This document shows positions 23,792-24,374 of a stretch of DNA of 64,000 bases, piece after piece. Source of the DNA: Tilletia caries. Lineage: Eukaryota; Basidiomycota; Exobasidiomycetes; Tilletiales; Tilletiaceae. The translations under genes and the position numbers were made by a program. The notes under the pieces are model-generated. The model searched no databases, was not told the DNA's origin, and saw only the letters and a list, made by a program, of their open reading frames with translations. The stretch lies in assembly GCA_032718865.1 (NCBI GenBank), contig JALUTQ010000032.1, positions 868,001-932,000 on the forward strand. The letters run 5' to 3'. Each line of letters begins with the position of its first letter. Within the stretch, counting starts at the first letter, position 1.

Positions 23792-24374
23792 TCAAGACCG
23801 TTCTCCGCGGAGCCGACGGGCAAGTTGCATGTCCTTGGGTCGAATGGTGACACGACCAGCATGGATGGCCGCCAGATTGCTTCAGGATAGGAACGAGAGG
23901 GAAAGTCAGTCAGTAGTCAGTCTCGCATATATGAAGAAGGTAGGGATCCACATACTCACGTGTCTGCGAGGATTGAAACCAGATAAGCCTCGGAGGCCCC
24001 CTGAAGAGCAGCGAGAGCCCCGGTCTGGAAGCGGAGGTCCGTCCTGATGACATCCTGAGCGATCTCACGTACGAGGCGCTGGAGGGGGAGCTTGCGGAGG
24101 CACAGCTCGGTTGACTTCTGGTACTTGCGGATCTCGCGAAGGGCGACCGTGCCGGGCTTGTAGCGGTGGGGCTTCTTGACTGGGAAAGGGAGGGCGGGAC
24201 AAGGAGAAGAAGACATGTGAGTGAGCACCGCGGAACCAAGCTTGGAAGAGGAACGGGGAGGAGATGCTCACCACCACCAGCGGCACGAGCGAGCTTCTCG
24301 GCCTTCTTGGCGAGCTGCGCGCGAGGAGCCTTGCCTCCAGTCGACTGTCTGGCAGTTTGCTTGGTGCGGGCCAT
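23792..24374 (-). CDS. Divergent histone H3 variant carried by element B
   Basis: Three exons (24374-24272, 24179-23960, 23879-23792) with GT-AG introns join perfectly to 136 codons plus stop, the exact H3 length. It starts MARTKQTAR and ends RRLRGERS; the histone fold (REIRKYQKSTEL, LVREIAQD, TDLRF, ASEAYLV, NLAAIHAGRVTI) is intact. Numbering without Met: K4, K14, K23 and the GGVKK lysine (K36) are kept. K9 is Gln (ARQST), K18 is Ala, the ARKS motif around K27 is replaced by AEKLARA with one residue fewer, the K79 position is Arg within a one-residue-longer VIRTDLRF, and K115 is Gly. It lacks the extended loop 1 of CenH3. Intact frame and splice sites argue for selection or recent capture. 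Confidence 0.93.

Follow-up and report, generated by a model that had tools for sequence, protein, structure and literature searches.

The histone H3 gene and the transposon that carries it

This report concerns a 64,000-nucleotide window (positions 868001-932000 of contig C27) of the 38.1-Mb, 40-contig genome of the fungus Tilletia caries, in which a CACTA-like DNA transposon carries an intact gene for histone H3 whose product lacks K9, the lysine used by cells to mark DNA for silencing. Loci are named below by contig, C27 being the window copy. The gene and the two ends of its element—terminal inverted repeats (TIRs) flanked by target-site duplications—are as follows.

24272..24374, minus strand: H3 exon 1 (gene reading), encoding a tail with Q9, A18 and no ARKS27
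24180-24271, minus strand: H3 intron 1, GT-AG, 92 nt
23960..24179, minus strand: H3 exon 2 (gene reading)
23880-23959, minus strand: H3 intron 2, GT-AG, 80 nt
23792..23879, minus strand: H3 exon 3 with the stop codon (gene reading)
17288..17290, no strand: left target-site duplication TGT, 3 bp (sequence)
17291..17317, plus strand: left TIR, 27 nt, CACTGCCACC... (inverted-repeat search and recurrence in the genome)
28549..28575, minus strand: right TIR, 27 nt (inverted-repeat search)
28576..28578, no strand: right target-site duplication TGT, 3 bp (sequence)

The first-pass annotation of this DNA had described an intact three-exon H3 gene with a preserved fold, and both points hold: the gene runs from 24374 to 23792 on the minus strand, is interrupted by two GT-AG introns and encodes 136 aa, of which residues 1-135, including the histone fold, align with solved H3 (E 7.5e-61). 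The residues it had listed are also right, with Q9, A18, no ARKS at 26-28 and Arg at the place of K79, and with K4, K14 and K36 present; the protein thus reads ARQS and AEKL where canonical H3 has ARKS (7-10 and 25-28). What does not hold is the use of exact length as an argument. Loop 1 reads QDVIRTDL vs QDFKTDL in the alignment to solved H3, and because the loss of one tail residue is offset by this insertion of one, the normal length is a coincidence. In its core, the window copy further carries two substitutions, F to L in PFQRL and E to G in LQEAS, at sites that its nearest relatives conserve, so that this copy in particular may be past its best.

Three other identities were considered for the gene and rejected. 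CENP-A is recognised by RWQ in loop 1 with a longer insertion and by a diverged tail; the window protein has RFQ and an H3 tail, and a separate CENP-A-like gene lies at C1:636 kb. The motif A-I-G at 87-90 is the mark of H3.3-type, replication-independent H3; the window protein has GALA at this site, and many of the other variants described below have AAIG. Nor is this the host H3 at its native locus, as the canonical genes sit elsewhere, at C32:138 kb (divergent from an H4 gene) and at C39:103 kb, so that the window gene is not the only H3 of the genome.

The element was correctly recognised as CACTA-like. It measures 11,285 bp, with perfect 27-nt TIRs and TGT on both sides. Its termini, CACTG...CAGTG, fit the 5'-CAC..GTG-3' pattern given for EnSpm elements in the available text of PMC12730594, and the duplication is of 3 bp in all seven H3-bearing copies with these ends. 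The 19-nt core of the TIR occurs 32 times exactly in the genome and 48 times with at most one mismatch (a reversed control pattern, 0 times). Because this core recurs and all seven H3-bearing elements have perfect 3-bp duplications, a chance origin of the ends is excluded. We rejected an assignment of the window element to the hAT-borne type known as H3L, as its ends are EnSpm-like and its duplication is of 3 bp; two other loci, C25a and C40a, do have the features of that type. Pairs of CACTG TIRs about 0.7-0.8 kb apart, which look like short relatives of the miniature inverted-repeat transposable element (MITE) kind, were seen at C1:906853-907541, C32:307371-308059, C4:679299-680123 and elsewhere; wider CACTG pairs, with a span of 6 kb, are present at C3:1182954-1189022 and C30:1015461-1021589.

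H3 variants and their carriers across the genome

When the genome was searched with the H3 query, we obtained at least 78 matched stretches, which were grouped into at least 35 H3-like loci: the two canonical genes, the CENP-A-like gene and 32 others, three of which are short weak matches (C22:1171k, C34:1809k and C21:571k). H3 cargo is found in elements of both the hAT and the EnSpm-like superfamily, whose ends are of three types. The CACTG-ended elements with H3 are C27, C39a, C39b, C1a, C4, C34 and C7, whose duplications are TGT, ATT, GTG, CGT, ACG, ATG and TAT, respectively. The right end of the C4 element has two mismatches, the C4 and C39b elements span 27.9 and 24.6 kb, and Transposase_21 matches over the cut-off (32.8-33.9 bits) lie within the C4, C34, C7 and C39b elements. 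Two copies with F at position 9 are carried by hAT elements, C25a by one of 9,271 bp with the 8-bp duplication CCCAGTTC and C40a by one of 9,687 bp with the 8-bp duplication AGACTCGG; each of the two elements has a Dimer_Tnp_hAT domain (E 1e-12). The C5a copy has Q at 9; the inverted ends around it are imperfect, stand 12.76 kb from each other and are flanked by a direct repeat (one in the real sequence, none in 30 shuffles), and a Transposase_21 frame is found inside this element (E 1.8e-15). The repeat can be read as TCTCAGA, CTCAG or TCA, according to the register chosen for the ends. The question whether such an H3 always lies between TIRs of the window's type is therefore answered in part, with seven loci between CACTG ends, two in hAT elements and one in a Transposase_21 element with other ends.

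Several further loci show signs of mobility. C30d and C32b share about 3 kb with the hAT copies at 95-99% identity and have a hAT match 1.3 kb away, C30c has a Transposase_21 match 2.2 kb off, and the transposase frame near C19a is 44-46% identical to that of the window. C30a, C5b and C19b lie in dispersed repeats, since they are 98-99.6% identical to one another over about 3.2 kb. At C25b and C19a, a search for element ends gave no convincing pair. Overall, 13 of the 32 non-canonical loci have a hAT or Transposase_21 match over the cut-off no more than 8 kb away, as do none of eight controls. In a random placement test run on 30 of the 32, 12 loci were near a transposase vs 1.7 expected, and none of 5000 placements reached 12, the highest being 8. 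This test used all 74 hAT rows and 50 of the 60 Transposase_21 rows (nine were below the cut-off and one, a neighbour of another, was dropped), and its count is conservative because the transposase of the window element is too diverged to score.

Two of the H3-bearing elements also hold other host-like domains within their TIRs. In the C1a element it is a 60S acidic ribosomal protein domain (L022:3204-4223, E 1.2e-20), another captured host gene, and in the C25a hAT element a protein kinase domain (L034:2330-3586, E 5.5e-18). A highly divergent H3-like gene of 164 aa is present at C27:532634 (L056) and C33:751086 (L065), the C33 copy being broken. It retains K4, has H or Y at 9 and in each place has a hAT dimerisation domain less than 1 kb away. 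The relics C30:729k and C5:2014k retain ARKSTGG or AARK stretches. With an H4 query we found seven stretches at five places, two of them 89% identical, two variants at 70-72% and one partial at 63%. The H4 variant (about 70% identical, tail TGRGKGLGLGGAKRHRK, diverged C terminus) is at C23:1042929 (L043) and C39:1867077 (L044), in a dispersed repeat that is 98-99% identical between the two places over about 3 kb, and is possibly a second mobile histone.

Tail changes, descent and selection

The variants were compared in a tree of 19 rows, 12 from this genome, six from T. indica and one from T. horrida, alongside nine canonical rows (the two host genes and seven fungal H3s hand-picked from match lists). 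Rows were omitted as near-duplicates (C34, C7, C5b, C23, C32b and C30d, which equal kept rows at positions 4, 9 and 36) or as damaged (C39b, with Lys at 9, C25a, C19b, C30:729k, C40:1434k, C40:1408k, C5:2014k, C32:66k and C3:623k). The 164-aa forms (C27:533k and C33:751k), the three short weak matches and 11 of 18 Tilletia database proteins, mostly forms present in this genome too, were also left out; C19a was retained even though the reading frame of its tail is probably disturbed.

K9 is replaced in 16 of the 19 variants (15 of 18 without C19a), by R, Q, F or H; K4, K23 and K36 are kept in all 19, R26 in none, and position 8 or 9 is changed in every row. Residues 1-17 are otherwise nearly frozen save for a few others: position 9 takes 7 steps on the tree, and the remaining 16 of the first 17 positions take 0.81 on average. 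The codons flanking position 9 vary silently while their residues stay unchanged, and the F9 codon of the hAT family, TTC, is three changes from AAG. The K27 motif is indeed missing from the window copy, but its loss is not specific because the middle of the tail, in which it lies, varies freely. Similar proteins occur in other Tilletia genomes. In the public protein lists, each comprising the best 120 of about 7,990 matches, the most identical proteins are from Tilletia (97-99%), and by E-value the lists are topped by longer H3 fusions from other organisms. Of 18 Tilletia database proteins found by K9-less queries, 17 are without K9 and all 18 have K4.

Gene structure and phylogeny bear on where these variants came from. 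Two introns, after the first base of the V35 codon and within the T107 codon, are present in 11 of the 12 variants compared, at the positions seen in the C39:103-kb host H3; the C32 host gene differs, the C4 variant has the first of the two introns only, and the C39:103-kb gene as read has a further intron right after the ATG. In an LG+G4 phylogeny with its root at S. pombe, all 19 variants fall into a single group (bootstrap 90), and in a tree made with the posterior mean site frequency (PMSF) model the nine canonical rows group at 88/93, with many unresolved forks inside the variants. Since the introns stand at host positions and the variants are one group, the simplest origin is that a host H3 was captured once, as DNA, before the sampled species diverged. 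Families differ from one another by a silent divergence of 1.1-2.4; the value is 0.6 for both C27-C5a and C3-C1b, and 0.9-1.3 against the C32 host gene.

The history of the cargo can also be compared with that of the other frames in the window element, which are listed here with the ratio of nonsynonymous to synonymous substitution rates (dN/dS) where one was obtained.

17926..19557, plus strand: 543-aa frame of unknown function, dN/dS 0.30-0.38
19580..20431, minus strand: 283-aa frame downstream of the transposase frame, dN/dS 0.18-0.33
20432..22846, minus strand: 804-aa transposase frame, weak Plavaka/DUF1258 matches below the cut-off
24585..25553, minus strand: captured fragment of the STI1/HOP DP domain, E 1.5e-6, 28.4 bits (cut-off 29.1)
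25765..26253, plus strand: 162-aa frame (ORF25765) of the cargo block, dN/dS 0.53-0.70
26295..26966, plus strand: 223-aa frame (ORF26295) of the cargo block, Cys/His cluster seen by eye, dN/dS 0.35-0.69
27725..28249, minus strand: 174-aa open frame, partly kept in C39a

The 543-aa frame is 92% identical in C39a (aa 1-448) and 47% in C1a (aa 1-416). The window transposase scores 14 bits to Plavaka and DUF1258, under the cut-off, and its C1a homologue matches Transposase_21 with E 4.8e-6 (26.4 bits, cut-off 28.6). When C27 and C1a are compared, DNA identity is 84-88% in the block from H3 to ORF26295 and about 72% in the transposase part, and silent divergence is 0.20 in H3 vs 1.2-2.0 in the transposase. 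This mismatch, together with the H3 of C4, C34 and C7—a separate lineage of 148 aa with R9, within the same ends—suggests that H3 has moved between, or has been replaced within, element backbones.

The pattern of substitutions shows that the H3 family of the window is under purifying selection. Values of dN/dS are 0.13 for C27-C39a (five coding and 13 silent changes, P 4e-5), 0.14 for C27-C1a (P 1e-6) and 0.14 for C27-C5a (P 9e-14); elsewhere, C3-C1b gives 0.09 and comparisons between families 0.06-0.11. Among close copies, C7 gives 0.12 vs C4 and 0.23 vs C34, on four and five changes, and C30a gives 0 vs C5b and 0.35 vs C23, on four and two. Against the host gene, the comparison proposed in the first-pass annotation, dN/dS is 0.10-0.21. 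The STI1 fragment, at 0.69-1.06 vs C39a and C39b, serves as a near-neutral internal control; the transposase frame gives 0.16-0.87 by piece. Pieces shorter than 60 aa or with E above 1e-8 were excluded from the values for element frames, hence C1a gives no STI1 value.

Proposed escape from silencing and alternative explanations

The host appears to possess the machinery on which loss of K9 would act. A pathway of H3K9 methylation and HP1 is indicated by two pre-SET (SUV39-like) loci, with SET and post-SET motifs recognised by eye, and by one HP1-like frame of 313 aa in which a chromodomain is paired with a chromoshadow domain. R8, the neighbour of K9, matters to enzymes of the SUV39 type. DNA_methylase (PF00145) had no match in the whole genome, against matches in 10 of 14 controls, and this fungus may therefore lack cytosine methylation; the preSET_CXC profile (EZH2-type) had no match in the genome and none in the controls either.

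Our reading, to which we give a probability of about 0.6, is that the window holds an intact H3 in a CACTA-like transposon, belonging to a mostly K9-less family, that is predicted to block the spread of K9 methylation and so likely lets its carriers escape from silencing. The anti-silencing role suggested at first pass is partly supported: the gene is transposon cargo and not a host H3, K9 is lost in hAT and EnSpm-like elements alike, and K4, K23 and K36 are kept. From these sequence features we infer that cargo H3 enters chromatin and counters silencing there, by the following route. A Tilletia H3 gene, with introns as in today's C39:103-kb H3, would have been captured long ago as DNA, and a change at K9, probably to R first, would have yielded an H3 that cannot be methylated at 9. 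Transcribed elements would supply this variant, which would join nucleosomes in trans, and a fraction of K9-less nucleosomes would suffice to break the read-write spreading of H3K9 methylation, with K4 and K36 remaining available for the marks of active chromatin. Elements with such cargo would outlast those without it, and the cargo block would have moved between backbones. In fission yeast, according to the available text of PMC13079825, heterochromatin spreads and is inherited less well once a single H3 gene out of three carries K9R or K14R. This is what the cargo would need, because a minority of such H3 acts there amid normal H3. The C3 and C1b variants, with K9 kept and K14 lost, would fit as well, since the single-gene K14R change impairs spreading.

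A number of observations weigh against escape from silencing. K9 is kept in three of the 19 rows (C30c, C3 and C1b), each with R8K; K14, which is L and I in C3 and C1b, is kept in C30c, and in 16 of 19 rows overall. The TIR-bounded C39b likewise has AAG (Lys) at codon 9, together with a 9-nt in-frame deletion in the core. Positions 18, 22 and 27-29 take 9-14 steps on the tree, more than position 9, and canonical genes are under-sampled among the 18 Tilletia database proteins because the queries were K9-less. About ten H3 copies are broken, the TIR-bounded C25a among them, which is interrupted in exon 1 within its hAT element; C1a has an altered C terminus, the same as in a T. controversa database protein; and C19a has a disturbed tail and gives a dN/dS of 0.25 with C27. 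The young hAT copies, with dN/dS of 1.4-1.8 on few changes, look neutral (P 0.74 for one pair). No transposon evidence was found around C3 or C1b, and at C25b the sole sign of an element is a frame for a KDZ transposase (E 4e-41) some 5 kb off. At fission yeast nucleation sites, silencing withstood K9R in a single gene and was little reduced, again in the available text of PMC13079825. Finally, the benefit to a particular copy is not obvious because histones act in trans, and dN/dS alone does not tell whether host or element is the beneficiary.

That last point leads to the possibility, which we regard as unlikely, that the fungus itself needs a K9-less, replication-independent H3 of which transposons merely scattered copies. 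It would account for C25b, which is single-copy in the H3 query, lies near T. indica forms and has no ends that could be found, for the AIG motif of many variants, with its H3.3 meaning, and for a purifying selection that is silent on who benefits. It sits poorly with ten copies bounded by element ends of three types, with cargo that differs among same-ended elements (C4, C34 and C7 vs C27) and with the many decayed copies. Passive transduplication, in which H3 is a captured passenger and its tail changes are drift, is decidedly unlikely. Capture of other genes (the STI1 fragment, and the ribosomal protein and kinase domains in related elements), the near-neutral recent hAT copies and the dead hAT-borne H3 copies that the available text of PMC6710886 describes in Mycosphaerellaceae all speak for it. 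However, the low dN/dS in the window family, even at the 0.25 reached with damaged C19a, between C3 and C1b and between families, a value near 1 for the STI1 fragment of the same elements, the kept splice sites and the nearly frozen residues 1-17 argue that the H3 is, as a class, not a decaying captured copy, as the first-pass annotation had maintained. For the window's family, a dead passenger of the Mycosphaerellaceae kind is disfavoured by these dN/dS values and the STI1 control. Neutral dN/dS with stop codons in other copies, which had been named in advance as a refuting result, was not found, given the low dN/dS of the window's family; stops or frame breaks do occur in several copies.

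Two explanations look beyond K9 methylation as such. One would have the cargo aid transposition, a loose nucleosome (loop-1 insertion, K115 to G) opening target or donor DNA with K9 loss secondary. The window's family and some T. indica forms do have the insertion and the motif HAGRVT, but we think this quite improbable, as both features are missing from C4, C40a, C25b, C30a, C30c, C3 and C1b and the change at 8 or 9 is common to all 19 rows. The other, a poison histone whose substituted tail traps the K9 methyltransferase in the manner of K-to-M oncohistones, could draw on F9 of the hAT family, which is bulky, hydrophobic and three codon changes from Lys; R, Q and H are not among the residues known to trap SET enzymes, and we hold this very improbable. 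Escape from silencing, if extended beyond one element, would amount to a genus-wide arms race, a version at even odds in our judgement: unrelated DNA transposons would trade a selfish H3 whose K9 site is repeatedly destroyed (by R, Q, F or H, or by R8K with K14 lost) and whose K4 and K36 are guarded by selection, poisoning heterochromatin spread for every element in the nucleus.

Several known systems offer parallels. VANC of Arabidopsis VANDAL elements is a transposon-encoded anti-silencing protein that binds the DNA of its own element; it resembles the proposed Tilletia cargo as a transposon-encoded counter to silencing, and differs in being an unrelated DNA-binding protein and no histone. 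The closest parallel in logic is with the fungal TET/JBP transposons (available text of PMC12730594), which are likewise of mixed kinds, including EnSpm (CAC..GTG, 3-bp duplications) and hAT, and whose cargo passes between lineages with a proposed escape from silencing. Their cargo is a dioxygenase enzyme acting on DNA methylation, whereas that of Tilletia is a structural histone whose target would be H3K9 methylation. Capture of H3 by hAT elements is already known (PMC3538342, PMC6710886; both in the text available). H3L of Pyrenophora tritici-repentis is an H3-like gene in a TIR DNA transposon with many copies, for which expressed sequence tags are reported; it belongs to one hAT family of 26 very similar copies, and the word "lysine" occurs 0 times in the main text as available (PMC3538342). 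Tilletia differs in its EnSpm-like, Transposase_21 and hAT carriers, its old divergent lineages, selection and K9 loss. In Mycosphaerellaceae, the available text of PMC6710886 describes high-copy H3 cargo with hAT TIRs and 8-bp duplications, as in Tilletia; there the captured form was a transcript, and only the original copy escaped inactivation by repeat-induced point mutation, unlike the Tilletia copies, which keep introns at host positions and of which many have intact frames.

We recognised no report of a K9-less element-borne H3 by title or start of abstract in the open-access literature, and the word "histone" does not occur in the available text of two Tilletia genome descriptions, one of them PMC10684912. 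If our reading is correct, this would be, within the open-access literature searched, the first case of transposons fighting silencing via the nucleosome itself rather than via an enzyme or a DNA-binding protein. The element-borne copies would also constitute a natural mutagenesis of the H3 tail, revealing which lysines are kept and which can be lost, and would open to direct test an old question, whether a minority of unmethylatable H3 frees repeats from heterochromatin in nature.

The window contains other transposon-like sequences besides the H3 element. At 6169-16346 lies a 10.2-kb element with perfect 25-nt TIRs (CACAGGAGAAAC...) that is flanked by ATG at either end and holds a weak Transposase_21 frame (10140-11132), and at 44868-51209 a 6.3-kb element with perfect 28-nt TIRs (TTACAGCAAGTT...) and a 388-aa frame (49844-51010) that we take to resemble a Tc1/mariner-type transposase. 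A MITE-like element of 762 bp (28592-29353), with perfect 25-nt TIRs starting TACAGTCCC, is 16 bp off the end of the H3 element, and an uninterrupted 1196-aa hAT transposase frame (33587-37177; Dimer_Tnp_hAT, E 5e-16) is located about 9 kb from H3.
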